From positions 603,453-667,452 of the forward strand of contig SCKX01000001.1 of assembly GCA_004100325.1 (NCBI GenBank): a DNA stretch of 64,000 nucleotides, written 5' to 3'. Below are positions 2,105 through 33,249 of this stretch, one piece after another. The position numbers and the translations under genes were made by a program. This stretch comes from Candidatus Microsaccharimonas sossegonensis. GTDB lineage: Bacteria; Patescibacteriota; Saccharimonadia; Saccharimonadales; Saccharimonadaceae. Positions within the stretch are counted from its first letter, which is position 1. Each line of letters opens with the position of its first letter. Below the pieces are notes generated by a model that was not told the origin of the DNA, searched no databases, and worked only from the letters and a program-made list of their open reading frames with translations.

Positions 2105-2345
2105 GAAGCAACCATTTTTTTAGGTTTTTTGACTTCTTTCTTTCGGTCTCGTCCCTTTGACATAAGCCACCTTTCCTTGTGTCTCCGTTATGGAGATATA
2201 TTTGCATACTATTATGCGCCTTTTTTTGTGATTTGGCTAATTTTGCTCACATGCCTGGCACATAAGAACCTAATTTTTTATTCGTTAATTCGCCTACTGA
2301 CGCATGTACTTAACTAATAGTATACATATATGTGTATAATTCTCC

Positions 2346-3533
2346 ATGGGAAATGTGACAAAAATCCAATCATCTGAACGACAATACTCAAACGAGTCAC
2401 TGCCGACGTTAAACTTGTCTTCTGCCGCTAATGAACTGTATAAAAATGAGCAAATTGCTCCGATCGAAGTATCAGTCGACAGCTCTCTGCGCCTCAAAGT
2501 ACTCGATCAATGCGGCATGGCCTGTGTTTTTTGTCATAACGAAGGAACACCAGTGAGCTCTGATAATGTTGGTCGTGAGGCTTCCGAGTTTACGTCAGCC
2601 GGTACATCGAGTCGCGTCTCAATTTATCTCAGCACAAATGGTGCGGATTTTGTCAGTGGTAATGTGCAGCCGGACATAGCCCTGCAGGAAGCAGTCCGCA
2701 GTATTGATAATTTGGTCGATATTCATGAGGTTCACTTAACTGGAGGTGAGCCGACTCTTCATCCACGATTACCGGAAATTGTCAGGCAACTAACCGACGA
2801 TGGTCATAAAGTAAAAATGACGAGCAATGGTGAGCGTTTTTATACCATGGCTCCAGCATTAAAAGAAGCTGGGCTGAGTAAGGTTGTTTTTAGTATTTTT
2901 GGAACGACACCCGAGGATCTTGCTGCGGTTCAAGGTGGAAAGTTTAATAATCTAAAGTTCGCGCAGCTAAAACTTGATGCACTCGAAAGGTCTATTGTTG
3001 CGGCATATGAAAATGGCATTGAAACATCTGCCAATATTGTGATGCCAAGTCTTGATCATGCCGAGCGAATTATAAATATTATTGATCGGTTTGGTGACTT
3101 TTGTAAGATCCGTATTTTAAACTCTCTTGACGAAGGTATAGAATCATACGAAGCTGTCTACGAAGTGCTCGCGATGATGGGTACTAAAGTTCAAAAAGTA
3201 AACATGACAGCTGGCGCATCGAGCATGTCAGTTGATTATGTGCTTCCGGATCATAAAGCAGTCGGATTTAAGCAGATACGCAAGTCATATTTAAGTGAAG
3301 TGTGCAATGACTGTGTATTAAAAGATAACGGATGCGAAGAAGGATTTTATGGCATGCGTATGTACGTTGATAGAATGAATCAATATCGAGTCGGTGTATG
3401 TATCCAACGCATGGATCTTACCCGTCCATTAGACTTATTTATGCGTAGTAATTTACCAGAGGCAATTAGAGCGAACAGAAGTCAAGAATATGATAGAATT
3501 ATTGAGACAACGCAAATTGAAAGGATTTTGTAA
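2346..3533 (+). CDS. radical SAM protein (MoaA-like fold)
   Basis: LKVLDQCGMACVFCHNEGTP contains CX3CX2C; VHLTGGEPTLHP is a radical SAM GGEP motif; C-terminal Cys cluster CNDCVLKDNGCEEGFYG. Confidence 0.9.
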   Translation: MGNVTKIQSSERQYSNESLPTLNLSSAANELYKNEQIAPIEVSVDSSLRLKVLDQCGMACVFCHNEGTPVSSDNVGREASEFTSAGTSSRVSIYLSTNGADFVSGNVQPDIALQEAVRSIDNLVDIHEVHLTGGEPTLHPRLPEIVRQLTDDGHKVKMTSNGERFYTMAPALKEAGLSKVVFSIFGTTPEDLAAVQGGKFNNLKFAQLKLDALERSIVAAYENGIETSANIVMPSLDHAERIINIIDRFGDFCKIRILNSLDEGIESYEAVYEVLAMMGTKVQKVNMTAGASSMSVDYVLPDHKAVGFKQIRKSYLSEVCNDCVLKDNGCEEGFYGMRMYVDRMNQYRVGVCIQRMDLTRPLDLFMRSNLPEAIRANRSQEYDRIIETTQIERIL

Positions 3534-3538
3534 GACTT

Positions 3539-4117
3539 GTGTCCTCAGAGTCAGTGAAAGATATTGAAGTTGAGCTTCGCACCTACGACGTAGATGGCGA
3601 TGCGCTTCGAGCAACACTCCGAACCTTAGGAGCGGTGAGCCTTGGTGAACTGGTTTTTAAACGTGCGGTTCTTGACGTTTACCCAGCGGATCCAAATAAA
3701 TGGATCCGTGTTCGTTCAAACGGTATTGAAACGACCCTTGCAGTCAAGCAGCGTGGGACGGCTACGGAAATGGACGGCGAAATCGAAGAACGGGTTGAGT
3801 CGTTCGAAACGACGTTGCAATTGTTGGCTTCACTTGGGTTTGAACCTCGCAGTGTTCAAGAATCACGCAGTGATATTTACACGATTGATGGCACAGAAGT
3901 TTCCATTGATACGTGGCCAGGTTTGAAAGAGCTGTTAGAGATAGAGGCTAAAGACACTCATGCATCTGTTGGCGAGCGTACGGCGACGATTTATAAGGTT
4001 GCTGAAAAGCTCGGCATTCCTGTCGAAGCTTTGACAACCGAGTCAATCGAACAACGCTACATGGATACTTTAGGGATTGACGTAAAGACAACGTCGCTGA
4101 CATTCGATACACTGTAG
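3539..4117 (+). CDS. CYTH-domain protein (class IV adenylate cyclase / thiamine triphosphatase-like)
   Basis: N-terminal EVELR-type motif (IEVELRTYDV), WIRVRSNG, LAVKQRG, and acidic/basic alternation typical of CYTH; RBS-distance spacing from the upstream gene. Confidence 0.8.
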   Translation: MSSESVKDIEVELRTYDVDGDALRATLRTLGAVSLGELVFKRAVLDVYPADPNKWIRVRSNGIETTLAVKQRGTATEMDGEIEERVESFETTLQLLASLGFEPRSVQESRSDIYTIDGTEVSIDTWPGLKELLEIEAKDTHASVGERTATIYKVAEKLGIPVEALTTESIEQRYMDTLGIDVKTTSLTFDTL

Positions 4118-4122
4118 ACATA

Positions 4123-4698
4123 ATGAAAGTCCATTTTACCGGATCTAACTACAAGCTTGACGAGCACTACGTCGACTACTCGGCTATTATTTCTTATTTG
4201 AAGTCCCAAGGACACACATTAACTCGCGAATGGATCGATGAAGATCTAAAACATCAAAATAAAGATGCCGAATACAGCGAGGTTGAGTATCGTGAGATAT
4301 GGCAAAAAGTAAAGAACTCAATTATGATATCTGACGCTGTGATTATTGAAGGATGGAATAACAGCTTTAGTATAGGCTATCAGACGGCTTTTGCTCTCAG
4401 TTATAAAAAACCTGTTTTAGTTATGACTCCTAATAACAAGATCAGCCATACGATTATAGCTGGTGAAGACAATCCTTTCTTGCATATTGTGCACTATACT
4501 GAAGCAACGCTTGAATCTGTATTAAAGGAATTTTTGGACAAATTCCAAGTAAGCGATAAAGATATGCGCTTTAATATGTTTATTGACCGTGAAACGCAAG
4601 TGTACCTTGATATTGAGTCGTACAAGACGGGTAAAACAAAAGCAAAAATCATTCGTGACCTGATTAAACGCGAAATTCGTAATAACGAAGGTTTATAG
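4123..4698 (+). CDS. nucleoside 2-deoxyribosyltransferase-like / DUF4406-like protein
   Basis: MKVHFTGSNY...IMISDAVIIEGWNNSFSIGYQTAFALSYKKPVLVMTPN resembles the NDT fold (substrate loop plus D-A-V-I-x-E). Confidence 0.6.
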   Translation: MKVHFTGSNYKLDEHYVDYSAIISYLKSQGHTLTREWIDEDLKHQNKDAEYSEVEYREIWQKVKNSIMISDAVIIEGWNNSFSIGYQTAFALSYKKPVLVMTPNNKISHTIIAGEDNPFLHIVHYTEATLESVLKEFLDKFQVSDKDMRFNMFIDRETQVYLDIESYKTGKTKAKIIRDLIKREIRNNEGL

Positions 4699-4718
4699 AT
4701 TAAAAAAGCCATTTTGAA

Positions 4719-4740
4719 AAGCACCCGATGAAGGGTGCTT
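4719..4740 (+). terminator. intrinsic terminator of the radical SAM/CYTH/NDT-like operon
   Basis: AAGCACCC-gatgaa-GGGTGCTT followed by a T/C-rich stretch, 20 nt after the stop. Confidence 0.6.
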
Positions 4741-4752
4741 CTTCATTCTGCC

Positions 4753-4782
4753 GGCGAGTCGTCATTTTTGAGACGACTCGCC
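4753..4782. repeat. perfect inverted repeat (stem-loop)
   Basis: GGCGAGTCGTC-atttttga-GACGACTCGCC, 11 bp perfect stem between convergent units. Confidence 0.8.
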
Positions 4783-4862
4783 GACACGAATGGTTCGCGT
4801 ATGGCAGACGCGAGGCTGTTCTAGATGACAGATCTAGGACTGGCTCATTTTGGACGGAAGAG

Positions 4863-5924
4863 CTACCGTTTGCTACCTTCTAGAGACACCCCATTACTAT
4901 TCAGGAATGCAATAGGATCAGCGGGCTTTCCATTCAGATGGACCAGCAAATGTAGGTGGTTGCCAGTGGATACACCGGTTGACCCAACATATCCAATAAC
5001 TTGACCTGCTGTTACTGTATCCCCTTTCTTAAGCCCTGCAGCGATGCTGGACATGTGTGCGTATCCAATGGTGACGTTGTTTCCAGCGTCCATGCCGACA
5101 TAGGTACCATACGTTCCGTTGTCTCCGGCAAAGGTGACAGTACCGGAACGCACGGCATAAATCGGCGTGTTTTTGGCAGCACCGAGATCGACGCCATCGT
5201 GCAGCTTATACCGAAGCGTGACCGGGTTAATGCGCATGCCAAAAATATCATTGATACGATACGTACCCGCTGCCAGTGGAAGTTGCCAACCAGTCGACTG
5301 ACAACTATTCGTCGCGCCAGGTGCTGCCACCTGGCTTAACAGTTCGGTGCCGGTTTTGTCCCAATTCCACCGTTTTTGGTATGCCGCTAGGTTTGGATTC
5401 TCGACGTCGATGGCGATGGTGATCATCGAAAGCGAGTCGAGGTTACCCTTCACGTTTTTATGAAGTGTGTCAAACCACTTGTTTGCGGCATAGGTGACAT
5501 TGAGTATTTCTGCTCGTGTCCCCCATCCTTGACTTGGACGCATCTGAAACACGCCCACACTATCTGAACCGTCACTCGCCTTTGTTTCAACATTGGTGAG
5601 ATTCGATTCTTGGATGCCAGTAGCGATCGCGGTGGCGATTGCCTTTGGGGTCTCTTGTGGTGTGCGTTGCATGCCTGCGGCGTAGATCTGTGTTGCGATC
5701 TGGAGCTTTTTCTTCTGATCATCTTTCGAGAACAGATTTAGATACTCCTGGGCAGACATGCCGGTCAACTGATTGGAACCAGTGAACGACACGCTCGCTG
5801 CTGCGGTGCAGCTGTTGCCTCCTGAAAGGAGACCACCAACTACACCAACAGCAAGCGGTACAGCCATGAAACTACCGAGCGAGATAAGCCCGATAGTCAG
5901 TGCGACTTTTCTATCGAGCGCCAT
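4863..5924 (-). CDS. T4SS-associated cell-wall hydrolase: lysozyme-like domain + M23 peptidase
   Basis: N-terminal TM; central lytic-transglycosylase-like region (GIQESNLTN..GVFQMRPSQGWG); C-terminal HDGVDLG and GNHLHLLVH M23 motifs. Confidence 0.85.
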   Translation of the reverse strand: MALDRKVALTIGLISLGSFMAVPLAVGVVGGLLSGGNSCTAAASVSFTGSNQLTGMSAQEYLNLFSKDDQKKKLQIATQIYAAGMQRTPQETPKAIATAIATGIQESNLTNVETKASDGSDSVGVFQMRPSQGWGTRAEILNVTYAANKWFDTLHKNVKGNLDSLSMITIAIDVENPNLAAYQKRWNWDKTGTELLSQVAAPGATNSCQSTGWQLPLAAGTYRINDIFGMRINPVTLRYKLHDGVDLGAAKNTPIYAVRSGTVTFAGDNGTYGTYVGMDAGNNVTIGYAHMSSIAAGLKKGDTVTAGQVIGYVGSTGVSTGNHLHLLVHLNGKPADPIAFLNSNGVSLEGSKR

Positions 5925-5938
5925 GTTTCCTCTCTAGG

Positions 5939-7462
5939 TTAGTTCCGGATTTCCTCTGCGATTTGCTTGGCTCGAAGGGCTGCGAGCTTCGCAAGTCGCT
6001 CGGGGTACTCCGGCATTTCATCGATGGGTTGGATGTTCCTCAGGCGATCGCGCGAGGAGTTGGACTGAACCAGCGGAATCTCCGATTCCAGCAGCCTGTG
6101 CTGAAAACGAACGGGTTCCCTGTTTCTAATCCATAGCACGCCTTCTCCTGGTTCGAAGTAAGGCATTTGTGCAACCAGTGCTTCGGTCATACCCGGGAGT
6201 TTCGAAATTTCATGCAAGACATCGGTGTCATCCGACTGTCGCATAAAAAACCGTATGCCCACTCCCAGATCAATCTCTTTTGCAAGTGCCCGCATTTCAG
6301 AGCCTGCGGAGCCCGCTTCGGTGACCTGCATGCCGAACTGATACATGCGCCAGAGCGACGTCGCACGCTTTCGTACCGTTGCCGATCCGTTCGCTTGCGT
6401 ACGCAGATGGAACAGACCCTTCGCCGCTACTCCTTCCTCATCACTAATGAAGAGGTGGGGAATAATGCGGCTCAGGTCACGGTTGGTACCGATCTCCTTG
6501 TCGTCGTATTGGACTCCGTCGTTCTCGGCTTGCATGATGACAGCCTCCAGGAACGCGTTCGCGAGCATGGGGATGTCTTCTGTATCAAGAAGGGCGACGC
6601 GCTGGATCAGGATGTCATAGAGCGACTCCTTGCCTCCGAACGCATCTCCATACTCTGGACCCATGAGCCTATCCAGACACTTGGCGGCATGGCTTGCCGT
6701 CTCAAGGAAGGACAGGTCGACATGGGTGATCGTGGCATCAAGCCGCAGCTGTTCCCGAAGATTCGGAAACCGCGTGAACTCCTGCTCGAAATCTTTTTCG
6801 AGCTGCCGACGACCCTCCCTGTAGTACTCGTCGAAGTCCGTCATGACCAGTCCTCGAAGGGCTTCTGCGATCAGACGTTCGCCGATGAGTTCGGGCTTCT
6901 CCTTCATGATGCGGGTAACAGCGATCGAGACCGCTGGTGCAACCTGGATGTTATCGTATTGTTTCCCGATATCTTGGATGATCCCGACAGTTGCGCTGAT
7001 GATGCTAGTGGGCGACTTCAGCAGACCGATCAAATTGATTCGCTTACCTTTGCCGATTTTGAAAAAAGTCGCATGCAGGGATTTGGCCACAGGGCCGTAC
7101 TCTGCCACGCCGTTTTCCGAACGACGACTCACGATACGTGTCCGCCAGTACTCCGGACGACCCAGGGGGTCACGAGCCTGAAGGAGGGCGCAACGCTTGA
7201 TCATTGACTTGGCGAAGGTTGACTTTCCCGCCCCTTGCTCACCAGCAACGGTGACCGATGTGGTCTTACTGTCAATCAGGTGGGGGTGGAAAAACATCAG
7301 GTCGGCCATGTAGGTGTAATTACCCACAGGGACTCCTAGTTTCTGTAGGGGCTTCGGTGCGACGTTGGGCTGATAGAGCGCCATCGCCTCAGGAGTACCC
7401 CTGTACACTCGACCGCGCACGATCTTTCCTTTCGTTGGGGGATGATGAATTGTGTGGTACAT
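5939..7462 (-). CDS. T4SS/conjugation ATPase (VirB4/TraE-like, actinobacterial type)
   Basis: Walker A GEQGAGKSTFAKS; Walker B-like HLFISDEEG; located among T4SS genes. Confidence 0.75.
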   Translation of the reverse strand: MYHTIHHPPTKGKIVRGRVYRGTPEAMALYQPNVAPKPLQKLGVPVGNYTYMADLMFFHPHLIDSKTTSVTVAGEQGAGKSTFAKSMIKRCALLQARDPLGRPEYWRTRIVSRRSENGVAEYGPVAKSLHATFFKIGKGKRINLIGLLKSPTSIISATVGIIQDIGKQYDNIQVAPAVSIAVTRIMKEKPELIGERLIAEALRGLVMTDFDEYYREGRRQLEKDFEQEFTRFPNLREQLRLDATITHVDLSFLETASHAAKCLDRLMGPEYGDAFGGKESLYDILIQRVALLDTEDIPMLANAFLEAVIMQAENDGVQYDDKEIGTNRDLSRIIPHLFISDEEGVAAKGLFHLRTQANGSATVRKRATSLWRMYQFGMQVTEAGSAGSEMRALAKEIDLGVGIRFFMRQSDDTDVLHEISKLPGMTEALVAQMPYFEPGEGVLWIRNREPVRFQHRLLESEIPLVQSNSSRDRLRNIQPIDEMPEYPERLAKLAALRAKQIAEEIRN

Positions 7463-7520
7463 GAGGTATTGGATAACACCTCAGAAACAATGTTAACAGG
7501 AAACATAACTGCTGAAATGT

Positions 7521-7576
7521 TATACATCCGGGTGACCGACGCAGCTTTCGCTACGCCAGTCACCCGGAGATGTATA
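7521..7576. repeat. long imperfect inverted repeat in intercistronic gap
   Basis: TATACATC--CGGGTGAC / GTCACCCGGAGATGTATA (16 paired bases with a 2 nt bulge). Confidence 0.8.
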
Positions 7577-7589
7577 CCGGAGTGTCTGA

Positions 7590-9326
7590 TCATTCACAAT
7601 CGATCAGTGTGACAGTGGTAAGGAACTTCTTCCACTGTTGGCTGGGTCGGCTCACTTGCACTGGAGTATACCCCAATGTAGCGAATCGATCCATGTCAGC
7701 CGCGATCTGCTCCTCCAGGTCTTCTTCCGAGCTCTCAAGTGCAGCAAATCGAATCACATAGTTCTGGCGAACAGACGACTCATCGATGTTTCTGAGTTCG
7801 TCGTAGCGTTCGTTCTGCCGCCGTTCAGCCCGAGGACCGGTGCGGATGATCCCAGCATTGTCGGCTAGTTCGCCGATTGCACCGAGACCATTGTTCGTGA
7901 CGATGTACTCCATGTTACTGCTGTGAGACTGACCGATCACGGAGAATGACGTGAACCTTGAGATGGCGTCTGTGAGGTCAGCCATCTCATGTGCTAGAGC
8001 TTCCTCACGTGGATACTCCGTCATATCAAGCACCGTTGCATAGGTGCCGTCCACGTTGATTCCGGTCTTCGAGGTGATGACATGACTCACTGGAAGGTAG
8101 CGATCGTACATTGCGTCTCCCACTACTTCGATGCCGTTGTGCTGTCGTTCCTTGTTCAGAAGCAATAGCTCTTCGGCTTCGTTGTAGTAGTCGAACAGTG
8201 TTGTGACGTCGCGCGACTTCCGTAAGTATCGTTCAGCTTGCTCGACGTCCAGGATCTCTGTACCGCCCCCTACTAAAGCGTCAAGCTTTGGGAAGACGAT
8301 GTTTTTAATCCTGGTGATCGTGAGGCGTCGGAAAACTTTCTCCGACATCTCGTTCTTCTTGTTTTTGGTCTCGAACGCCTTCCTCAGAGCGTCGTTCTCC
8401 TTGACGGTGACGACCAACACCATGTCTGTGCTATAGGACTGCACCGTCAGTTCGGCGAATCCCTCTGCCTGCATCTCGTACAACGCGACGTTCATCTTGT
8501 CGTCGAGAGTGTAGGTTTCGGGATCCTTTTCGGACAGGATGGCCTCCGGCATGATTACTTCCATGCTGGCGACCTGCTTCATCGTTTCGGGAATAAGCCA
8601 CTGGTCTTGCGGCCGGTTGCGAACTCCCATTGCGATGTTAAGGCCACGGAGACCGGCGGTGACCGTTGCCTGTTTGATGAGGTCAGCGTAGCCCTTGATC
8701 GTTAGATACTGGTTCACATGAGACATGCTCCGGAACCTGCTTCCATCGGTCTTGAACACCATCGAGTAGGTCCGCTTCTCCTTCTGAAAAATCAGACCCA
8801 CCTTAGAACCATCCCGAAGCACCATCCCTCGAACTTCGAGGGGAAAAATCTTGGCGCTCCGTTCACGGTCAATCTCGCTCAGTGTGAACTGAGCGATGAC
8901 GGCATCAGGAATGTCATCGACGGTCGTTTTGACCCGCCGAACATTTCCTACACGCTTTGCCTCAGTCTGCTTCGCGTCGGCAATCGCTTGCTCCACCTGC
9001 ACCGATTGCTCGGATCGGAAGAGTTCGTGATGTTTGACAGCCACTGTCCACCAGTCCATCACCAAAGTAATGGGAATCTGATAGAGACGCTCATTGAACT
9101 TGCCGCTCTTCGGAGTGTACATCGTGATACCCCAGAAAATGATCAGGGGTACCAGGGCCAATGTTGTTAACCAGCTCAGGCCATTCTGTGCGAGAACGCT
9201 CATCGTGACCAACCCGAAGGCTGCGACGATTGATGTCCAGAACCAGTCGAGTGCTTCATGTGGGAGGAACCGCTGGCCCCGCGTTCGAGGATGTCGAATC
9301 CCTGGCGCGTTGTTATCGATAGACAC
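7590..9326 (-). CDS. SCO6880-family type IV secretion/conjugation membrane protein
   Basis: Two N-terminal TM helices and a large soluble domain like actinobacterial SCO6880 conjugal proteins. GTG start at 9326 has GGGAGG RBS upstream; the tracked ORF extends to 9401. Confidence 0.65.
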   Translation of the reverse strand: MSIDNNAPGIRHPRTRGQRFLPHEALDWFWTSIVAAFGLVTMSVLAQNGLSWLTTLALVPLIIFWGITMYTPKSGKFNERLYQIPITLVMDWWTVAVKHHELFRSEQSVQVEQAIADAKQTEAKRVGNVRRVKTTVDDIPDAVIAQFTLSEIDRERSAKIFPLEVRGMVLRDGSKVGLIFQKEKRTYSMVFKTDGSRFRSMSHVNQYLTIKGYADLIKQATVTAGLRGLNIAMGVRNRPQDQWLIPETMKQVASMEVIMPEAILSEKDPETYTLDDKMNVALYEMQAEGFAELTVQSYSTDMVLVVTVKENDALRKAFETKNKKNEMSEKVFRRLTITRIKNIVFPKLDALVGGGTEILDVEQAERYLRKSRDVTTLFDYYNEAEELLLLNKERQHNGIEVVGDAMYDRYLPVSHVITSKTGINVDGTYATVLDMTEYPREEALAHEMADLTDAISRFTSFSVIGQSHSSNMEYIVTNNGLGAIGELADNAGIIRTGPRAERRQNERYDELRNIDESSVRQNYVIRFAALESSEEDLEEQIAADMDRFATLGYTPVQVSRPSQQWKKFLTTVTLIDCE

Positions 9327-10458
9327 TGAGACCTCCCTTTTTTGGACTCGCTTGCTTGTTGCCGATGGCACCGCCAACAGCCTTGATGAGCGGAGGCCCA
9401 ATCATGACTGCGGCTTTTGCCGCCGGATGGACATTGCTTCCAGCCATAGCAGCTGCTTTAGCTGCCTTGATCCCCCACGCAGTAAGCGCGGACGAGGCGG
9501 TTGCGGTGGCAGCCAAGGTAACCTCTTTCTTGAAGTTTTGCCCTTTGCTAACCTCATTAATACTACGCGTCCGGTTTGTCATGGCCGTTTCGACCTTGTT
9601 GGTGACACGAGCCTCCACCTTCTGGCGACCCTGTGTCCATGATCGAACTGATCCCTTGATCTCGCCGTTCAGCTTACCGATCACGTTACTCACGCTACGA
9701 TAAAACAGGAACGGCATCACGATTTGTGACAGTATTGCGAGCGTCATGCCAGCCCAATTGATGAGCCCAATCCAGAACAATCCCGATGAAGGGATCAGAT
9801 TGGCGAACCAATTACTTAGTTCTACAATGGCAATTGCGACAGGCTGACCAAACAGTTCGGTGACGAGCAGGATCGAGATAATCACGGACATAGTGCGGCG
9901 AGACCGAGGTCCCATACCGTACATGTACGCAACGATCACGCCGAACAACGTCAAAACGATGTTGATCAGTTGGTAAGACACGAACAGAAGCGTTAGTGCC
10001 ATAGACCATGAAAATAGCGAAGCAAAAATCGCCGAGTCGAACAGTCCATTGCCGAACGTAAAGTCCGGCAGGACGATCGCAGGGTCGGTTTTTGACGCCG
10101 TTTGCTGACCAATGCTCAGTACCAAAATTGTTAGGCTGCGACTCAAGCTATTCATCGTCGAGATTGCCAGAAACCAGACGGTTCCCAACACGGTCGATGC
10201 GACAAATATTAGCAACGAGTACACAGCTGACAATCGGTGACGTGAGATCAAGATACCCATGGGCACCATGATCAATGCAATGACCAGCGCTAGCGCTGTT
10301 CCAAAACCGTAACCGTTTGCAAACAGCCACTGGACGATGGACAAGTTGTCGAAATTGAGTGAAGTTCCGACAACCTTGAGAAGCACCTGAAATACAGCCT
10401 GATACGCGTCCTTCAACGCGCTTGGCCAATCCCAAGGAAACATTGGAACTCCAATCAA
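9313..10458 (-). CDS. polytopic TrbL/VirB6-like T4SS membrane protein
   Basis: Multiple hydrophobic helices, Ala-rich C-terminus; overlaps the next gene start. Confidence 0.7.
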   Translation of the reverse strand: MIGVPMFPWDWPSALKDAYQAVFQVLLKVVGTSLNFDNLSIVQWLFANGYGFGTALALVIALIMVPMGILISRHRLSAVYSLLIFVASTVLGTVWFLAISTMNSLSRSLTILVLSIGQQTASKTDPAIVLPDFTFGNGLFDSAIFASLFSWSMALTLLFVSYQLINIVLTLFGVIVAYMYGMGPRSRRTMSVIISILLVTELFGQPVAIAIVELSNWFANLIPSSGLFWIGLINWAGMTLAILSQIVMPFLFYRSVSNVIGKLNGEIKGSVRSWTQGRQKVEARVTNKVETAMTNRTRSINEVSKGQNFKKEVTLAATATASSALTAWGIKAAKAAAMAGSNVHPAAKAAVMIGPPLIKAVGGAIGNKQASPKKGGLSVYR

Positions 10459-10467
10459 TGGTTGATT

Positions 10468-10505
10468 CTACCGGGGTCGAACGCGTTGGCGAACGACCCC
10501 GGTAG
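10468..10505. repeat. perfect inverted repeat between T4SS genes
   Basis: CTACCGGGGTCG ... CGACCCCGGTAG, 12 bp perfect stem. Confidence 0.85.
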
Positions 10506-10513
10506 GTGGTGAA

Positions 10514-10912
10514 TCAGATGAAGCTGCAGGCTCCAGTGGAACTGCTGGTCGCGAATCCGACGATTGCCCCCATAAAGAGGATCACGCCAAGTGCTCCAGC
10601 AAAGATCGTCAGGACTTTACCGCGATGCCTCGTGAAGAAGGTTACCGCGAAGAGACCGACTGCAACGACCACTAGAATGACTGCACTGGCCTGCATGAGG
10701 CCAAGGAAGTTCGCGACAGCGTCGCTGACGTTGCTTCCTGATGCGCTACTGGCGCTTTGCTTGATCGTGTTGACCCAGCCGCAAGACGGTGCGATCGACT
10801 TGAGCGTGGTGGCTGCCGTCTTCTGATCCAGGGTTCCCCCTGCACCAGCCAGCGGCAGGAAGGCAGCTGCCATGAAGATGGCTGCTCCCAACTTGCGTGC
10901 GTGCTTGAACAT
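10514..10912 (-). CDS. small pilin-like (VirB2/TrbC-like) membrane protein
   Basis: Signal peptide MFKHARKLGAAIFMAAAFLPLAGAG plus two hydrophobic helices; next to the VirB6-like gene. Confidence 0.6.
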   Translation of the reverse strand: MFKHARKLGAAIFMAAAFLPLAGAGGTLDQKTAATTLKSIAPSCGWVNTIKQSASSASGSNVSDAVANFLGLMQASAVILVVVAVGLFAVTFFTRHRGKVLTIFAGALGVILFMGAIVGFATSSSTGACSFI

Positions 10913-10952
10913 GTGTTTTCCGTTCTGTCAGGCACCGTTCGGTGCAGGGGTG

Positions 10953-12065
10953 TTACTCGGGGGTATAGCCGTTGATTCGCATTGCCGTAGTCGCCACCTT
11001 CTGTGCGAGGGTGGTGAGTGCATAGCGTGCTTGAGGTGTCAGTGCCTTCCGAACGACCTTACCTATCTTTTTCAGGTGGGGGTCGAACGGAATCAGAACG
11101 ATCTGCTCTGGGGACACCTTGAACATTGCAGCGAATGCGTACTGCTCCCTGGTTCCGCACATGTGCACGGGCAGGTCGCTGAGTGAAATGACGACGGTTT
11201 CCAACTGCTCACGCAGCTGATAGTGGACATTATCCAGGGCTTCTCCTATATCTTCGAGGTCTTCCTTAGAGCCTGCTTTACCTACCAATACTCGGACGGT
11301 TGAGGCTTTGGATGCTCCAAAGGTTGCAGGATCACGAAGGTTGGGACTGGTGTCGATCACGAAGGTGTGGAAGTTATGCTTCAGCTCGGTCACCGTCTTA
11401 ATCATGGTACCTACACTGATGCTATGTCCCGCGAGGTGATGAAACACCACGACTCCTGTTGCGTCATCGGTTCCGGTGGCCTCGATGAGCTCGTCGTACG
11501 TCGGGGTGTTTCCCCTGTTGACGTGCTTCGAGACCCGCGTGGTGGAAATCATGTCCTCCTTGAGCAAGTTGAACCTGCCTGCAACCTTACCGCCCCCTCG
11601 ATTGGTATCGAAGACGGCAGAGGCCAAGTGGGTCGCTGTTGCCAAGGTGGCGACGAGCCACGTTGAAATGGTCGTCTTGGTGGCGCCACCTTTATCCGTC
11701 ATGACTGTAATGATTGCCATGAAATACGGTCGGTAGTGGTTGAGCCACTGCATGATCTTATCGGAAGCTGCGTTGTAAGACATGACCATCCGCGGTTGCG
11801 GAAGCCAGTCAAACTTGTTCAGTTTGAGTGCTGCGTAAAGCCACCACACCGCACGAAGCGACGTGTCCTCTGGCTTTCCAGCAAGCACCCACGGCTCGAG
11901 CTTGGCTTCGAAGGCAGAGCGACGTCTTGCCATAAGCGATGTCACTGACTGACGAGGCTCACGCTTGGGCTTCTGCGCCTTCATGGGGATGAGGTTGTCC
12001 TCGTCCTTGTTCCTCCCGACAATGTGAACCATTCTCGGAAAGGTAACTTGCTGTTGTTGCTCCAT
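10953..12065 (-). CDS. ParA/MinD-like ATPase of T4SS cluster
   Basis: Deviant Walker A-like TDKGGATKTTISTWLVATLA; TFVIDTSPNLRDP switch II-like. Confidence 0.75.
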   Translation of the reverse strand: MEQQQQVTFPRMVHIVGRNKDEDNLIPMKAQKPKREPRQSVTSLMARRRSAFEAKLEPWVLAGKPEDTSLRAVWWLYAALKLNKFDWLPQPRMVMSYNAASDKIMQWLNHYRPYFMAIITVMTDKGGATKTTISTWLVATLATATHLASAVFDTNRGGGKVAGRFNLLKEDMISTTRVSKHVNRGNTPTYDELIEATGTDDATGVVVFHHLAGHSISVGTMIKTVTELKHNFHTFVIDTSPNLRDPATFGASKASTVRVLVGKAGSKEDLEDIGEALDNVHYQLREQLETVVISLSDLPVHMCGTREQYAFAAMFKVSPEQIVLIPFDPHLKKIGKVVRKALTPQARYALTTLAQKVATTAMRINGYTPE

Positions 12066-12104
12066 GACTCTCCTTAAGGGATTGAGATGTTTTGTAAATG
12101 ATAG

Positions 12105-12165
12105 ACAACTTTTTAAGGTATACGAATGACGCGTGTGACGACATCAATACACCTTAAAAAGTTGT
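12105..12165. repeat. perfect 15 bp inverted repeat upstream of ParA-like gene (operator/structure)
   Basis: ACAACTTTTTAAGGT (12105-12119) / ACCTTAAAAAGTTGT (12151-12165). Confidence 0.8.
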
Positions 12166-12468
12166 AGAGTCGTCTTCGTGACATACCCGGATTTTTGTCC
12201 GGTTAAGAATTTGATTCATATTCGCGAAAGTATAAAAACTTTTTGCCCTCAAACCCGTAATCGAACAAAAATAATTACCATAACTGCTTTGATGTATATG
12301 ATGTATATATGTATATATTTTTTTAAAAATTATACCACTAATTCAAATTTAAATAAACCATTAACATGAAATTGATTAAAATTCGAATTATTAATATAAC
12401 ATAATGTTTTATCCCCGGGTGTTCGCGCTTAAATGAGCACCCGGGGATCTTCGTCCTCCTCTTTGAAA

Positions 12469-13173
12469 CTATGTGATTGCATTGATGATTGCTTCAAGAC
12501 GTTCGGCGTTCTTAACGTATTTCAGGTTATGAATCGGCTCATCATGTTCGATGATTGTATCCATGTCCACAGTTGATGCGTCGACGCCGATGCTTTTGAT
12601 TGCGGTCTCGAAGTTTGTCGGTTTTAGGTTGCAGCGAGTTTCTTTAGTTTTCACTTCGAAACTTATCTTCAAGATACCGAGATACCAAATTGGCTGTCTG
12701 GTGCGTCGGACACGATCGAGATCAGCGTAGATGAAGTCTCGTGACCACATGTTAAATGCCCGAAGTACGAGCCATACTATGAGGATTACGAACATCACCA
12801 TACCCACGATCAACTGCGATTCGTAGCGACCGAGTAGCTCTTGGTTTGATGCGTAGGCATAGGCTAGAAAATACTTAAGACCGAAGTATAAGGCGATGAC
12901 GAACATGACGAATACAAGAAGCTTCAAGTACTCTATCACAAGCATCAAAAGGCTTCGTCGTTCGTTGTAAACACCCACCTGGCTACGGAGTAATTTCTGT
13001 GCTTTTTTTCTGTCCTGAGCATCTTTCCGGTTTTGGATTTCTTGTGCTCTCAGGATTGAGAGCGCACCAAGTTCGATTTGGCGTCGATCATCGTCAGAAA
13101 GTTCATTGTTTTTTTGCCAATGCGACTGTTTGATTCCATTGTTGCTTTTGTTGGTGTCATGGTCGTTCATCAT
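12469..13173 (-). CDS. hypothetical membrane protein with two TM helices
   Basis: ORF with LVFVMFVIALYFGLKYFLAYAYA and LIVGMVMFVILIVWLVLRAF. Confidence 0.6.
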   Translation of the reverse strand: MMNDHDTNKSNNGIKQSHWQKNNELSDDDRRQIELGALSILRAQEIQNRKDAQDRKKAQKLLRSQVGVYNERRSLLMLVIEYLKLLVFVMFVIALYFGLKYFLAYAYASNQELLGRYESQLIVGMVMFVILIVWLVLRAFNMWSRDFIYADLDRVRRTRQPIWYLGILKISFEVKTKETRCNLKPTNFETAIKSIGVDASTVDMDTIIEHDEPIHNLKYVKNAERLEAIINAIT

Positions 13174-13285
13174 GCTCCTTAGAGAGAAGTCGGATTTTTA
13201 ATGTGCTATACACACCACACAGCGGGATAGCTGAGCATATCTACATTTATATACCTAAATTGTATTTATTACAAATCCATATTTA

Positions 13286-13314
13286 ATTACAAAATACACA
13301 TAAAGATGTATAAT
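13286..13314 (+). promoter_or_regulatory. sigma70-type promoter for Cys-rich peptide gene
   Basis: ATTACA-N17-TATAAT (13286-13291 / 13309-13314); -10 is perfect consensus. Confidence 0.65.
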
Positions 13315-13344
13315 ATAGTTGTTGGCTCTAGAGAAATGGAGAAC

Positions 13345-13524
13345 ATGAGTACAGCACTGTTGGAGCGTCCAACCTCCGAAAAGAAGGCTGTGGATCTACC
13401 TTCACTCGCTCATATGAAAGTCCGCGAGCCCGTTATGGGAGGCTGCGACTGCACCTGCACTGGGTGCAACGGCGATCCCACGTGGTGTCACTGCCATAAT
13501 CGGAACCGCGGATGTGACCTGTGA
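13345..13524 (+). CDS. small Cys-rich peptide with double-Gly leader-like N-terminus (candidate RiPP/bacteriocin precursor or metal-binding peptide)
   Basis: MSTALLERPTSEKKAVDLPSLAHMKVREPVMGG-CDCTCTGCNGDPTWCHCHNRNRGCDL: 7 Cys in the last 26 aa. The tracked start (13306) overlaps the promoter -10, so ATG 13345 (or 13336) is preferred. Confidence 0.65.
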   Translation: MSTALLERPTSEKKAVDLPSLAHMKVREPVMGGCDCTCTGCNGDPTWCHCHNRNRGCDL

Positions 13525-13530
13525 GCCACA

Positions 13531-13559
13531 GGGCCACTGGACGTAGTTCCAGTGGCCCC
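13531..13559 (+). terminator. strong intrinsic terminator
   Basis: GGGCCACTGG-acgtagtt-CCAGTGGCCC, 10 bp stem immediately after the stop. Confidence 0.8.
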
Positions 13560-14238: not shown

Positions 14239-15198
14239 ATGCCTAAGAATACAAAACAAAAAAATCTCTCTAACTTTGGATATATGTCTCGAATAGGCAT
14301 GATTGCCATAAGTATTTTGATCATTATAGTGGCAGCTAGTTTCTCGGTGTATGTCCTTTCAAATTACCAGTCAAAAGTCGTGACAATAACTGATATACCG
14401 ACCGTCCAAAAGAGTGACAGCGATAAGCTTTCGGGATCAACCACGACCGTTACACAAGTGACGAAACCACCAGTTGAAAAACCGGCGCCAGTTGTCACAC
14501 CTGCACCGGCCAGCAAAGTGCCAAGCCTGGCACCCACCAGTCCCCCGTCAAGTAATACAACGACGACTACCTACCAGTCGACGAACTGGGCAGGATATCT
14601 CTCGACCGGCGGTACTTTTACGGCAGTATCTGGTACCTGGATTGCATCGTCACCTACCCCAACCAGCACAACAAAAGAATCGGGTGATGGTACATGGGTC
14701 GGCATTGGGGGTATTACAACAAAAGATCTTATACAAATTGGAACTGAAAACACGTTTTCTGCAGCTGGTGTTATGTCGACGTCCGCTTTTTACGAGCTGC
14801 TCCCTGCCGGAGCTGTCGGTATCGTATCGGTTCCGATTTCACCAGGCGATACGGTATCAGCGTCAATTAGTCAACAAGCTGCGAACCAGTGGATGTTGTC
14901 TATCACGAATGTTACGACCGGTAAAACTTTTTCACGATCAGTCAGCTATTCGTCATCACTCTCTTCAGCTGAGTGGATCCAGGAAGACCCTAGCAATCCT
15001 GATGGCAGCCTTGTGCTACTCGACAATTTTGGGACCGTTCAATTCACGAATGCCGTCACGACAATGAATGGAACCACGATGTCCGCGGCTGCAAGTAGTG
15101 CTTCTCAGATTCACTTAATCGGCCAAGGAGAAGCAGCTGGTCACGGAGGAACACCTTCTGCGATCAACGGTAGTTCGTTTAGTGTTCGGTATTATTAA
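14239..15198 (+). CDS. secreted/membrane-anchored G1 (eqolisin-like) glutamic peptidase
   Basis: N-terminal TM, Pro/Thr-rich linker, then STNWAGYLSTGGTFTAVSGTWIA..GTWVGIGG..AFYELLPAG..AEWIQEDP matching the peptidase A4/G1 pattern. Confidence 0.8.
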   Translation: MPKNTKQKNLSNFGYMSRIGMIAISILIIIVAASFSVYVLSNYQSKVVTITDIPTVQKSDSDKLSGSTTTVTQVTKPPVEKPAPVVTPAPASKVPSLAPTSPPSSNTTTTTYQSTNWAGYLSTGGTFTAVSGTWIASSPTPTSTTKESGDGTWVGIGGITTKDLIQIGTENTFSAAGVMSTSAFYELLPAGAVGIVSVPISPGDTVSASISQQAANQWMLSITNVTTGKTFSRSVSYSSSLSSAEWIQEDPSNPDGSLVLLDNFGTVQFTNAVTTMNGTTMSAAASSASQIHLIGQGEAAGHGGTPSAINGSSFSVRYY

Positions 15199-27131: not shown

Positions 27132-28504
<1,373 letters not shown>

Positions 28505-29054: not shown

Positions 29055-31673
29055 CTAAGTCACTGACTTCATCATTGATAGCTCGTCATCTGTTTTCTTA
29101 CCAGTTTGCTTCTTCTTGGGCTTTACAGATTTTTTAGATGCCTTAGGAGCGTCTTCTTGCTTTGATTCGGTGGGTTGCTGTTCTTCTGGCTCAACTTTCT
29201 TGGCGTAAAGCTGCCGTGATGCGTCGATCACTCTTTCGGCTATAGCCTCATCGCCCGATTCATCCACTACTACGGTCACACCTGACATTGGTTCTTGTGC
29301 ATTGACGGCCGAGATGCGTACATAATATGAATATGCTGGCAGATTGGCTATCTCGCCCTGCTGAATAAACGGCATAAATAGTGGTATAACCAGACGCTCA
29401 TCCGATGGGCTACCAGAACGGAAACATACCACCGTACCTACGTTAGCGAGAATGATATCGACCAGACGTTGCTCGTCCTGCTGCGAGGTAGATTGTTCGG
29501 CCATAGTTAAGAACAACTTATACTTTCTCGCCTCCGACAGCATTTGCACAAAGCTTGTCGTAGCAAAGTTCTGGAACTCGTCAACGTAGAGGTAGTATGG
29601 GGTACGCTCGCCTTGTTTAATACGTGCACGACGTAGTGATGCTGTTTGCAGCTTGGCAAGTACGGTTGTGCCAAATAATGCCGAGGTATCTTCACCAAGA
29701 AGACCTTTTGAGAAGTTGCATACTAGGATCTTGCGTCCGGCTAGGATGTCTTCAAAGTTGATAGTAGACTTCGGTTGCTCGATCATCCTGCGAGCTGAAG
29801 CTGAGAACAAGAAGCGCCCGATTTTAGCAGTAATACCAGCGGCCATTTTGACTTTCTGCATATCACCGGCCTTAGCGAGCTCGTTGTTCCAAAAGTCTTT
29901 CAGGTTCTTATCTTCGAGTGTTTTTACAACCTTGCGACGGTATTTAGCATCGTTGAGTAGCTCGAAGATGGTAAATAAAGTTGGGCTTTCAAGTGTTAGC
30001 GCTGTTTGTATGGTGTTGCGTAGTACGTACTCGATGCGATGACCGCCACTATCGTCCTCTGAAAATATCTTGCGCAGCACTGATATGGTTGCTTCTGTGA
30101 TGGGGTCTTTCTCTCGCAAAAGATCATCACCCTCAAGATCGGATGATAGCTCAAGAAGATTCATGCCTATCGGATAGGCTAGATCGTCAGGATTGAGATA
30201 GATAACGTCATTGACACGCTCCTCTGGTATATACCGCAAGATACGCTCGGCAAGATCACCGTGAGGGTCGAGTACCGCCACGCCGTTACCTGCGCGTATA
30301 TCCTGCAATATCTCGTAAAACAGCATCGTCGTTTTACCATTACCCGTGCCACTGATGATATACATGTGCCGTTCTCGCTCTTCATCGGTAAGGCCAATAG
30401 GTGTAATCGTCTCATGGTGGTAGTTGTCACCTATGAGAATTGATAGCTTCTTACCGGATTTTAATGATACGGGCGCTGGCAGTGTACGGCTCAGGGATGT
30501 GATAAGATTATCAGTTTTACTCACTTGGCTCGACGGGAAGTGGTAGAGACTTGCAAGTTCCGTTGAGGCTAAAATCATTGCTGACTTGCGGAAGAGAGAT
30601 GGCAGTCGATTCGTCGCGTTACGCTGGCGTAGTTTATCAATAACCGGTAGGGATAGCCTCGCCTTGATAGACTGATACGGCGGAACACTATAGCCGTCGA
30701 GTGCTGATCGGAGTGCAATGATATGTTGTTTTGCATCGGGGCTTTTGACAAGCACGCGCAGGTTTACTTGAAATAGCGGTCGTGTGACTTTTTGATGCAT
30801 TGTCTCCATCAATTCAAGCTCAAATGCGCTCAAAGTTCGTGCTGGCCTATCATGAGTAGTGATACGTGCTTGTTGTTGGACGGCGCGTGATTTGGAATTG
30901 TAATAGTCCTTGTGGCCAAAAGTTGTACCCATATACACCTCTCCGGCAAGATCTGTTATGCCAGACGATGCTTTGCCAAAGATATTCGTGAAACGTCCGA
31001 GTAGTGTTAGTTGCTTGCCGCTTACTTGTTGCAAGATATTCTCATTACCAAGGATTTTATGAGAGAGCATATCGGCTTCGCGTAAGCGTACTGGTGTTGC
31101 TACAATTTGCAGTGCAATCTCCTCGTCATCACCCAGTTTTGTCATCGCGCCTGTTACATAGGATAAAGGGTCATGTTGCTCAAATACAGAAGTTAGCGTG
31201 AGCGGCAATACGTAGTGGCCGGTCTCTTTGAACTCAATAATTTTATCTACTTCACTAATCTCGCGTTCAATTTCTTTAACTTTTGAATCAGGTATATATG
31301 ATGTGATAACTTTCTGTGTATTCTTTGAACGTGTTTTCTCGACTTGTAGTAAATAGCGAATACCGTCTCTCCGTGTTGAAACAATCTCAAAACTCATCAC
31401 TGGCGAGCGATGATATAGCTTATCTTTTAGTTGTCGTGCAGCGCGTGCGCCATGTATGACCGAAAAGAGCTGCTCGGTAGCTTCTGGCGTCTTGGCAATA
31501 TTGGCCGGTGGTGTGATTTCGAGCCAGACCGTATCACGATGCAATAGATAGCGACGGTTGAAAAGAGTGAGAACAAAGATTGCTATAAAGTATGTAGCGA
31601 CAATAGCTACTAGAACGATGGTGATAGGTTGCCAGTGTTCAATAATGGATTCAAGATAGGCTTTGGTGTCCAT
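29055..31673 (-). CDS. VirD4/TraD-like type IV coupling ATPase (CPR type)
   Basis: N-terminal TM; ISGTGNGKTTM Walker A, VAVLDPHGDLAE, YLYVDEFQNFATTSF Walker B. Confidence 0.85.
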   Translation of the reverse strand: MDTKAYLESIIEHWQPITIVLVAIVATYFIAIFVLTLFNRRYLLHRDTVWLEITPPANIAKTPEATEQLFSVIHGARAARQLKDKLYHRSPVMSFEIVSTRRDGIRYLLQVEKTRSKNTQKVITSYIPDSKVKEIEREISEVDKIIEFKETGHYVLPLTLTSVFEQHDPLSYVTGAMTKLGDDEEIALQIVATPVRLREADMLSHKILGNENILQQVSGKQLTLLGRFTNIFGKASSGITDLAGEVYMGTTFGHKDYYNSKSRAVQQQARITTHDRPARTLSAFELELMETMHQKVTRPLFQVNLRVLVKSPDAKQHIIALRSALDGYSVPPYQSIKARLSLPVIDKLRQRNATNRLPSLFRKSAMILASTELASLYHFPSSQVSKTDNLITSLSRTLPAPVSLKSGKKLSILIGDNYHHETITPIGLTDEERERHMYIISGTGNGKTTMLFYEILQDIRAGNGVAVLDPHGDLAERILRYIPEERVNDVIYLNPDDLAYPIGMNLLELSSDLEGDDLLREKDPITEATISVLRKIFSEDDSGGHRIEYVLRNTIQTALTLESPTLFTIFELLNDAKYRRKVVKTLEDKNLKDFWNNELAKAGDMQKVKMAAGITAKIGRFLFSASARRMIEQPKSTINFEDILAGRKILVCNFSKGLLGEDTSALFGTTVLAKLQTASLRRARIKQGERTPYYLYVDEFQNFATTSFVQMLSEARKYKLFLTMAEQSTSQQDEQRLVDIILANVGTVVCFRSGSPSDERLVIPLFMPFIQQGEIANLPAYSYYVRISAVNAQEPMSGVTVVVDESGDEAIAERVIDASRQLYAKKVEPEEQQPTESKQEDAPKASKKSVKPKKKQTGKKTDDELSMMKSVT

Positions 31674-32221
31674 GCTTCTCCTTTCTTGCCATATATAAAG
31701 TTGTAATACTGCGCTGAGTCTTTGGAGAATGTACGCTGTGACACTACGTTTAGGTGCGGCGCGTTCATCTCTGATATTGTCCAGTCGCCAGTCTTATCAT
31801 CGACCTTAATGACATAGGCAACGTGACCCCATTCTCCCTCATCGGTTTGGAAGACTGCATTGATGGCCGGGGTATGATTTACCTCGTAGCCATCGGCGCG
31901 AGCACGATCATCCCATGTGTTCGCATTACCCCAAGTCGTCGGTATCGGTGTACCAGCCCAGAGACGCATCGCAAACGCCCAATAGGTACAGTTGCCCCAT
32001 TCGTAGGTATCGCCAGGAACGGGGCCACCCATGTAAAAACCTTGTGTCTCAGCAGCTTTTGCATCCGGTGTACCGGCGAGAAAGCTCAGGGCATCCGTAC
32101 CCATCGACATCACCGCCATAAATGGTAGCGACAAGATGATGACCAGCGTCGCTAATACGACCGCAATCGTTCGTTTTGGATTGTAGCCAGCTACACCAAA
32201 GATAACGATGCTTGGGTTCAC
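31610..32221 (-). CDS. CHAP-domain peptidoglycan amidase/peptidase
   Basis: N-terminal TM, YEWGNCTYWAFAMRLWAG, EWGHVAYVIKVDDKTGDWTISEMN. Confidence 0.82.
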   Translation of the reverse strand: MNPSIVIFGVAGYNPKRTIAVVLATLVIILSLPFMAVMSMGTDALSFLAGTPDAKAAETQGFYMGGPVPGDTYEWGNCTYWAFAMRLWAGTPIPTTWGNANTWDDRARADGYEVNHTPAINAVFQTDEGEWGHVAYVIKVDDKTGDWTISEMNAPHLNVVSQRTFSKDSAQYYNFIYGKKGEAWTPKPILNPLLNTGNLSPSF

Positions 32222-33249
32222 GCGTAAATCTCCGTGGGGTTTGTCGTAATGAGTGGATGTTCTTTATCTGCGGCAACTACTCGTACCGCAACATGGTTTT
32301 GGTCAGCAACAATCAATGCGTCACCACGCTCGCATGTCAGCAAGAAACTCTGCTCGTATTCACTGAGATTAAACTCATCGACAACACCACGAATGGTCGT
32401 AGTATCTTGTCGCATTAGAATACGCAAGGCACTCTGCGAGGCGATAGCGCGACCGTATTCGCTATGCAAAAAGTCATTAGCTTGTTGCGAGATGATCGAA
32501 ACACCAAGGTAGTATTTACGCGCTCGACGGACTAGCCCGGCAACGAATCGAGCACTTTGCTCGTGTTCAAGTAGTAACCAGCCCTCATCAATCACAAGCA
32601 GGCGTTTTTCGGGACTAGCCATAACTTGATTCTTAACGAAGTTAGAGATAATGAGCATCATGATTGGTCGCAAGTTGCTCGCCATATCCTTGATATCAAA
32701 AATCACCAGTCGATTATCTAGTTCGATATTGGTATGTGAATTAAATACGCCAGCCAGCGAGCCAGAGATATATCGCTCTAGTCGTTCACAAAGTTGTAGT
32801 TGTCCAAGGTCATGTAGCTCTGCGTACAAATCTTGTAGGCGCGGTTGTGACTTCTTTGCTTTTTTATACACCTTGAGAATAGCGCGGTCTACCGCTGCTT
32901 TTTCTGATTTATCCAAGCCCTCGGCCATCAAGCCGATGACATCGGTGAGGTCTTGAATATGCTCAGACAAGTCATCTTTAGAGTGAAAAGTCGTCGCCAA
33001 ATCGAACGGATTTATCTTGTCCTTGCTGCGCGTCGATAGTTTGATGTACGTGCCATCAACTGACTCTGAAAGATTTTTATATTCGCGCTCCGGATCAATA
33101 ACAATGACTTTCGTGCCTTGCATAAGTTGGCGCAAAATCTCAACTTTTGTCGTGTAGCTTTTACCCGAGCCGGACTGTGCAAACGTGATTGAATTGGCAT
33201 TATGGAGGCTAAAGCGATCAAGGATAACAAGTCCGACACAATGTTTCTC
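32218..33249 (-). pseudogene. VirB4/TraC-like T4SS ATPase, C-terminal half only (truncated)
   Basis: Frame upstream of the tracked start reads EKHCVGLVILDRFSLHNANSITFAQSGSGKSYTTKVEILRQLMQGTKVIVIDPE; Walker A kept, N-terminal domain missing, TAA in frame at about 33250. Confidence 0.8.

Follow-up and report, generated by a model that had tools for sequence, protein, structure and literature searches.

The window analyzed here, a 64,000-nucleotide stretch of DNA from Candidatus Microsaccharimonas sossegonensis, carries a string of six co-directional, tightly packed open reading frames (ORFs) running from position 12065 to 4863. All six are intact and lie where an earlier note had proposed a T4SS cluster. 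They are listed in order of transcription, followed by a possible accessory gene upstream of the string and by the genomic island that encloses it.

10953..12065, minus strand: ParA/MinD-like ATPase of 370 aa that opens the string; its Walker A is K125-GGATKTT
10514..10912, minus strand: VirB2/TrbC-like pilin of 132 aa; the N-terminus resembles a signal peptide and is followed by two hydrophobic helices (hydropathy)
9313..10458, minus strand: VirB6/TrbL-like polytopic membrane protein, 381 aa, about six transmembrane (TM) segments (profile-profile comparison, hydropathy)
7590..9401, minus strand: SCO6880-like protein, 603 aa; TM hairpin and predicted VirB4 N-terminal-domain fold
5939..7462, minus strand: VirB4-like ATPase, C-terminal half only, 507 aa; Walker A 74-GEQGAGKS, Walker B LFISDE
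4863..5924, minus strand: VirB1-like cell-wall hydrolase (lysozyme/M23), 353 aa; N-terminal TM segment, lysozyme-like domain, M23 endopeptidase
12469..13173, minus strand: possible accessory gene, whose product has two predicted TM segments and a bPH-like C-terminus
2250..13556, no strand: genomic island with the cassette
2346-3533: island gene, radical SAM
3539-4117: island gene, CYTH-like
4123-4698: island ORF
13306-13524: island gene, Cys-rich 72-aa ORF

The cassette is clearly set apart from its surroundings by composition. Its GC content is 0.535, compared with a mean of 0.444 (SD 0.011, maximum 0.467) for other 7.2-kb stretches of the window, and its GC3 of 0.52–0.68 lies above the 0.35–0.45 of sampled flanking genes. 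The GC enrichment claimed in the earlier note is thus borne out, supporting a foreign composition for the cassette.

Individual genes could be identified with differing degrees of certainty. Taken singly, none of the VirB4-like, SCO6880-like, and VirB6-like proteins finds a usable match in family libraries; their identities were confirmed by profile-profile comparison with actinobacterial proteins: VirB4 (hhalign prob 99.8, E 1e-30), SCO6880 (hhalign prob 98.4, E 6e-15, 444 columns), and VirB6/TrbL (prob 96.9, E 1.9e-10). The SCO6880-like protein probably starts at GTG 9329 (579 aa, with GGGAGG upstream) rather than at TTG 9401. Intact motifs are seen in three of the proteins: Walker A and B in the VirB4-like ATPase, a deviant Walker A in the ParA-like protein, and the M23 metal ligands in the hydrolase. 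The ParA-like protein matches ParA_partition (1.3e-6) and, below cut-off, AAA_31 (1.9e-4), and the cassette ParA profile matches the MinD/ParA gene adjoining VirB4 on a Clavibacter plasmid (7.6e-18). In the hydrolase the M23 domain is certain (Pfam 8.5e-29) and a preceding lysozyme-like domain is supported by a PHROG endolysin match (1.5e-14, residues 71-190); the protein also matches PHROG tape-measure (residues 71-340). The pilin is VirB2-like by size, topology, and position only: its length and place match TrbC/VirB2 genes of actinobacterial clusters, while hhalign gave no sequence-level proof (prob 3.8; the automatically picked pilin ORFs of loci L029 and L032, apparently in the wrong frame, were left out of the profile comparison). 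Membrane proteins laid out like that at 12469..13173 sit at comparable places in L012, L031, L033, and L074, with a bPH_2 match (0.0025) in L031 only; since it shows no significant similarity to them, its accessory role is tentative.

Predicted structures show VirB4 split over two genes. The AF2 model of the SCO6880-like protein (pLDDT 71.6) matches TrwK/VirB4 10-378 through its residues 175-603 (Z 19.1, rmsd 4.0, 332 aligned), and the model of the VirB4-like ATPase (pLDDT 80.2) matches TrwK 398-789 (Z 20.9, rmsd 3.6, 335 aligned) as well as TpVirB4 4ag5 (Z 27.6, rmsd 3.2, 348 aligned). Because the two predicted folds tile TrwK/VirB4, we read the SCO6880-like protein as its N-terminal half and the product of the next gene as its ATPase half. 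Structure libraries return HerA and TrwB besides VirB4 for the ATPase model, so the fold alone does not identify VirB4, and we base the assignment on rank together with profile comparison and context. Distances of the two proteins co-vary across cassettes (r 0.65, p 0.001), as expected of interacting partners that move together. A role in anti-phage defense was considered and rejected: the only sign of it is a weak mad8 match of the ATPase (1.8e-5), which we attribute to the shared HerA/VirB4-type ATPase fold.

Saccharibacteria are tiny parasitic or epibiont bacteria whose usual hosts are Actinobacteria, and the earlier note had suggested both an actinobacterial kinship and acquisition from a host lineage. 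The kinship is upheld. An SCO6880 family protein adjoins a homologous VirB4 ATPase, as in SCO6880-type systems, and the same gene string recurs on 13 actinobacterial plasmids, with the order pilin, VirB6, SCO6880, VirB4 in clusters such as those of Rhodococcus opacus pRoPD630_2, Clavibacter pCM2U-F1, and a Rothia mucilaginosa plasmid. As in the cassette, a gene for a ParA-like protein often belongs to these clusters, as does one for a dual cell-wall hydrolase. Judged by gene order and by the profile-profile matches of VirB4, SCO6880, and VirB6, the cassette shares common ancestry with the mating-pair-formation module of actinobacterial SCO6880-type conjugation systems. The curated model NCBIfam NF042935 (SCO6880_fam) does not match the window protein at E up to 1, versus 5e-131 for the Rhodococcus protein. 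In the VirB4 tree, the 17 Saccharimonadia cassette copies form one deep clade (100/98) beside, and not inside, the actinobacterial clade (100/99), leaving recent capture from a host unsupported. The cassette also differs from the plasmid clusters in being chromosomal and in lacking the coupling protein, DUF4913, and relaxase found there. A VirB8-like gene, which precedes VirB6 in the actinobacterial clusters, follows VirB4 in the Saccharimonadia cassettes that have one. Most other Saccharimonadia loci do, but in the window copy the hydrolase gene follows VirB4 without an intervening ORF, and no VirB8-profile match occurs anywhere in the window, which could reflect partial loss of function.

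The cluster is a compact accessory T4SS cassette of Saccharimonadia. In samples of about 390 genomes each, we found it in 12/392 genomes of the class and 12/394 of the family (~3%), and in the phylum-wide sample only within class Saccharimonadia. We read 17 loci, including the window. The order ParA, VirB6-like, SCO-like, VirB4-like is the same in the 16 others, usually with a pilin and a terminal hydrolase gene, the latter modular across loci (M23, NlpC/P60, CHAP, GH3, Exo_endo_phos). Strict vertical inheritance, which would have counted against the earlier note, is unlikely, since cassette divergence shows no relation to that of the core VirB4 (below) and the site is empty in a relative (G006, locus L110), where about 0.4 kb separates the genes that flank the 11-kb island and the cassette is absent. 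The cassette is GC-richer than its flanks in 16/17 loci. Either it travels among Saccharimonadia, or its loss is very frequent.

Could the cassette simply be a divergent copy of the ordinary Patescibacteria T4SS? The phylum's known relaxase-less T4SS likewise has VirB4, pilins, and VirB6 (PMC12102498), and both systems are VirB4-dependent, usually relaxase-less, monoderm, and equipped with VirB2-like pilins. Yet the core system is separately present in this genome (C1:225-244 kb, beside ORFs recognizable as dnaA and dnaN), and core VirB4 occurs in 16/17 cassette genomes. Within the genus, VirB4 identity is 91–96% for the core system and 15–28% for the cassette, and the VirB4 tree splits the cassette from the core Patescibacteria clade at 100/100, refuting this reading for VirB4. 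The core T4SS is near-universal and conserved, while the cassette is rare, GC-rich, and has a split VirB4 of another clade. We rate the equation of the two as extremely improbable.

The DNA-loading parts of a conjugation system are missing from the cassette. As the earlier note had observed, the cluster contains neither a relaxase nor a coupling protein. A linked relaxase just outside it, which the note would have taken as a refutation, is also missing: the cluster and its flanking ORFs encode neither protein at any of the 17 loci. The cassette is thus probably not a self-sufficient conjugation system. Relaxase families PF03432 (Relaxase) and PF08751 (TrwC) are found in 0/17 cassette genomes and PF13814 in 3/17, never linked to the cassette, so that 14/17 have none of the three. 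Coupling proteins (PF12696) are present in 17/17 genomes (1–4 each), but the nearest to any cassette is at least 17 kb away; conversely, a coupling protein follows VirB4 in 13/13 actinobacterial plasmid clusters. In the window, a coupling-protein-like ATPase at 29055-31673 lies 17 kb off, beside a different, truncated VirB4.

One possibility is that the cassette is the transfer module of an ICE or IME, mobilizing itself or, in trans, a distant relaxase module. The island missing from G006, the GC enrichment, and the divergence pattern are all in keeping with a mobile element, and in this genome mobilization in trans is possible given a PF13814 relaxase beside its own coupling protein at 379-381 kb, 229 kb from the cassette. 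Nevertheless, we regard this reading as improbable: besides the missing linked relaxases and coupling proteins and the 14 genomes without the tested relaxase families, a search of phages and viral contigs returned nothing, among plasmids the only match was a weak one, to a Rhodococcus plasmid present as two records, and no flanking (att-type) direct repeat of at least 10 bp was found near the window island junctions.

A coupling protein elsewhere in the genome could work in trans, and a second possibility is an effector-export T4SS that relies on such a protein and is directed against the host or competing epibionts. Such delivery has been proposed for Saccharibacteria (PMC12592800), every cassette genome encodes VirD4-type coupling proteins elsewhere, and the modular, variable hydrolase gene may suit an exported lytic protein. 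However, coupling proteins occur widely across the phylum (PMC12102498) and need not belong to the cassette, no cargo was identified beside it, and the hydrolase starts with an ordinary N-terminal TM segment, through which, as for VirB1, the wall could be reached without the T4SS. We hold effector export to be a real but minority possibility.

Archaeal Ced/Ted loci comprise a pilin, VirB6, and VirB4, with VirC1/ParA-like genes in Ted and no relaxase in the published accounts drawn on here (PMC9905601, PMC11868833), and the cassette matches this inventory (VirB2-, VirB6-, VirB4-, and ParA-like genes, no linked relaxase) as a part list, with the pilin assigned by topology. Ced is likewise described as spreading the VirB4 N-terminal half over two proteins, although CedB and CedD both keep ATPase domains, unlike the cassette split (PMC11868833), and those accounts describe no peptidoglycan hydrolase such as the cassette has. 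By description, the cassette also resembles Streptomyces coelicolor cmdABCDEF, a chromosomal six-gene cluster with a VirB4-like CmdB and a non-conjugative role, whose cmdB, cmdC, and cmdD are reported to be similar to SCO6878, SCO6880, and SCO6881; unlike the cassette, it is needed for normal sporulation (PMC2782261).

The match to Ted DNA-exchange loci and the Ced precedent for a divided VirB4 favor an importer, a minimal T4SS of pilin, VirB6, VirB4, and ParA that lacks relaxase and coupling protein and pulls DNA from host or other cells to feed a nucleotide-auxotrophic epibiont. Saccharibacteria have been proposed to acquire nucleotides through a T4SS (PMC11665869), and DNase I-superfamily (Exo_endo_phos) domains occur in the hydrolase gene of L032, L033, L036, and L078. 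Exo_endo_phos also covers phosphatases and lipases, however, and no nuclease domain was found in the window hydrolase. Moreover, among the actinobacterial and Patescibacteria systems compared, the cassette is related in sequence to actinobacterial export (conjugation) machines, and presence in ~3% of genomes means that the cassette cannot be a general nucleotide source. We therefore consider an importer unlikely. A bolder variant, which we rate as more doubtful still, is a second, horizontally circulating T4SS, derived from a conjugation-type machine through loss of its DNA-loading parts and with a split VirB4, reversed to draw in host DNA or nucleotides and helped, in some lineages, by a fusion of lysozyme, nuclease, and endopeptidase.

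Together, these results moderately favor, as the best explanation, a T4SS exapted for cell contact, translocation, or exchange rather than self-conjugation. The earlier note's proposal of a protein-delivery or pilus device instead of a conjugation system probably holds in its negative part; the function may be protein delivery, a pilus, or DNA import. In an exapted machine of this kind, the ParA-like ATPase would position the apparatus, the lysozyme/M23 protein may open peptidoglycan locally in its own wall or its partner's, the SCO6880-like protein would link the separately encoded VirB4 ATPase to the VirB6-like protein in the membrane, and the pilin would build a pilus or conduit. With its own relaxase and coupling protein missing, such a machine would be used to contact another cell, probably the host, or to trade material with it, rather than to pass on the island on which it lies.

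The role of the Saccharibacteria T4SS has been described as completely unknown (PMC11665869), and the core system is cited as essential in Southlakia epibionticum (in PMC12102498). If our reading is correct, some epibionts have two distinct T4SSs, the second an actinobacterial-type machine without DNA-loading parts. As an accessory element, the cassette may tolerate removal where the core T4SS does not, which would make the role of a T4SS in epibiosis testable, and its separate VirB4-N-like and VirB4-ATPase proteins would offer a compact system in which to test the coupling of the VirB4 motor to the membrane in monoderms.

Six tightly packed minus-strand ORFs with intact active-site motifs make up the cassette. 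Family libraries clearly identify only the M23 domain among the encoded proteins, and the remaining identities come from deeper comparison:

Cassette, 12065 to 4863, minus strand, in gene order
ParA-like ATPase: weak family-library matches
Pilin: signal-like N-terminus and two hydrophobic segments; assigned by size and position only
VirB6: profile-profile E 1.9e-10 against actinobacterial VirB6/TrbL
SCO6880-like (SCO-like) protein: profile-profile probability 98.4, E 6e-15, 444 columns
VirB4-like protein: profile-profile probability 99.8, E 1e-30
Hydrolase: lysozyme-like domain and M23

The curated SCO6880 model did not match the SCO-like protein in the family-library search. The cassette ParA profile matches a MinD/ParA gene adjoining VirB4 on a Clavibacter plasmid (7.6e-18). 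Cassette GC is 0.535, versus 0.444 ± 0.011 for stretches of the same size taken from the rest of the window; GC3, too, is elevated in 6/6 genes. The six-gene T4SS cluster of raised GC described in the earlier note is thus real, well beyond chance, given the packed ORFs, the raised GC and GC3, and the intact motifs.

Structural models suggest how the two central proteins relate to known machines. We compared AlphaFold2 models of the SCO-like and VirB4-like proteins (pLDDT 71.6 and 80.2, respectively) against the PDB by Foldseek and structural alignment. At Foldseek E < 0.001, the SCO-like model matched only chains of R388 TrwK/VirB4 structures; residues 175–603 of this model align with TrwK 10–378 (Z 19.1, rmsd 4.0, 332 residues). 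For the VirB4-like model, the best alignment is to Thermoanaerobacter VirB4 (Z 27.6); it also aligns to TrwK 398–789 (Z 20.9, rmsd 3.6, 335 residues). In the models, the two proteins tile a VirB4 end to end, and they may assemble with each other. Two predicted TM helices lie N-terminal to the VirB4-N fold of the SCO-like protein, a pair whose topology suggests an equivalent of VirB3. There is precedent in Ced, where the N-terminal half of VirB4 is distributed across two proteins (PMC11868833).

The cassette is not the core Patescibacteria T4SS, which is present separately and whose VirB4s the tree places apart. That known system (PMC12102498) lies at 225–244 kb of the source contig beside dnaA and dnaN (ORFs recognised by eye), and core VirB4 is found in 16/17 cassette genomes. 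Aligned within the genus, core VirB4s are 91–94% identical versus 15–28% for cassette VirB4s. The cassette ATPase occurs in 12/392 class genomes by protein search and 12/394 family genomes by profile search, and a phylum-wide sample (n = 379) yielded six genomes with matches at E < 1e-160, every one from that class, the remaining matches being partial, near 1e-11, or a divergent copy in G015. These counts come from single samples that took one genome for each species and do not amount to a census. Across the 17 loci read, some interrupted by contig ends (L076, L077), the order of ParA, VirB6, SCO, and VirB4 is constant, and the pilin and terminal hydrolase are usually present. Most carry after VirB4 a small TM protein of VirB8-like layout with weak profile support; the window and G009 copies lack it.

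The earlier note proposed capture from a host lineage; the tree does not support a recent capture of this kind. In a VirB4 phylogeny of 38 rows, Saccharimonadia cassettes form their own clade (100/98), separate from 13 actinobacterial plasmids (100/99) and core VirB4 (100/100). The tree has long branches, two of which join inside the Saccharimonadia clade and leave the branching order there uncertain. Cassette and core distances show no positive correlation (Spearman −0.23 for VirB4), those of cassette VirB4 and SCO rise together (0.65, p 0.001), and ParA distances follow neither. Although cassette distances are partly saturated at 15–30% identity, signal survives, since those of VirB4 and SCO correlate. 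Cassette GC exceeds that of the flanks in 16/17 loci. In the relative G006, the flanking genes stand ~0.4 kb apart; the window has an 11.3-kb island between them in a genome of 810 kb (97% complete). The tree, distances, raised GC, and empty G006 site mark the cassette as an accessory element that either moves horizontally or is often lost, and whose connection to actinobacterial systems is old. The same island encodes a radical SAM protein (2346–3533; prokaryotic viperin models 7e-15, plus generic radical SAM matches) and, at its right end, a 72-aa ORF (13306–13524) with a dense C-terminal Cys-rich stretch, a candidate peptide-product-like or metal-binding protein. Elsewhere in the window, a Peptidase A4 family protein (14239–15198; Pfam 1.6e-34) has a hydrophobic N-terminal segment.

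All 13 actinobacterial plasmids encode a coupling protein after VirB4 in the same cluster, with relaxases nearby wherever the displayed stretch extends to them. ORFs flanking the cassette loci include neither, and coupling proteins (PF12696), found in 17/17 cassette genomes, all lie at least 17 kb from the cassette; the earlier observation that the cluster lacks relaxase and VirD4 is therefore correct. Genome-wide, PF03432 and PF08751 occur in 0/17 cassette genomes and PF13814 in 3/17. These three include the source genome, where a PF13814 relaxase and a coupling protein (L115:11154–14448; ~379–382 kb of the contig) sit side by side, without VirB4, next to tRNA-Ala/tRNA-Ile, probably an rRNA operon. 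The nearest coupling protein in the window (29055–31673, VirD4-type) belongs to a second T4SS fragment (29055–33249) that also encodes a CHAP hydrolase and the C-terminal half of a VirB4-like protein, 42% identical to core VirB4 residues 236–600. Adjoining it is a reverse transcriptase (27132–28193; RVT_1 4e-20, PADLOC generic RT model 1e-54). G785 has two fuller copies of the fragment-type VirB4, each with a nearby coupling protein. The cassette could possibly use a coupling protein or relaxase encoded elsewhere, in trans.

Terminal proteins vary. In L032, L033, L036, and L078, Exo_endo_phos (DNase I superfamily; two domains in L032) lies between lysozyme-like and M23 domains, and some carry an extra NlpC/P60-like stretch, seemingly without its cysteine (by eye). 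The domain content of this fusion, which the window copy lacks, suggests that it attacks another cell or scavenges nucleic acids. In the L031 hydrolase (5453–8302), NlpC/P60 and a domain of glycosyl hydrolase 3 take the place of M23.

We found no description of SCO6880-type cassettes in Saccharibacteria, an absence that is not proof because only open-access papers were covered; already described are the core T4SS and, in a handful of cases, VirB4s of known classes gained by horizontal transfer. The cassette genes are intact, conserved as a string, and homologous to T4SS, without linked DNA-loading parts. Ted loci have the same inventory (PMC9905601). A Streptomyces chromosomal cluster, cmdABCDEF, has a non-conjugative role, in sporulation (PMC2782261), and is likely kin of the cassette machine, making such a role feasible for its relatives. 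The cassette would build a pilus or channel touching another cell, for which three readings remain: nothing passes and the machine serves adhesion, protein moves out, or DNA comes in.
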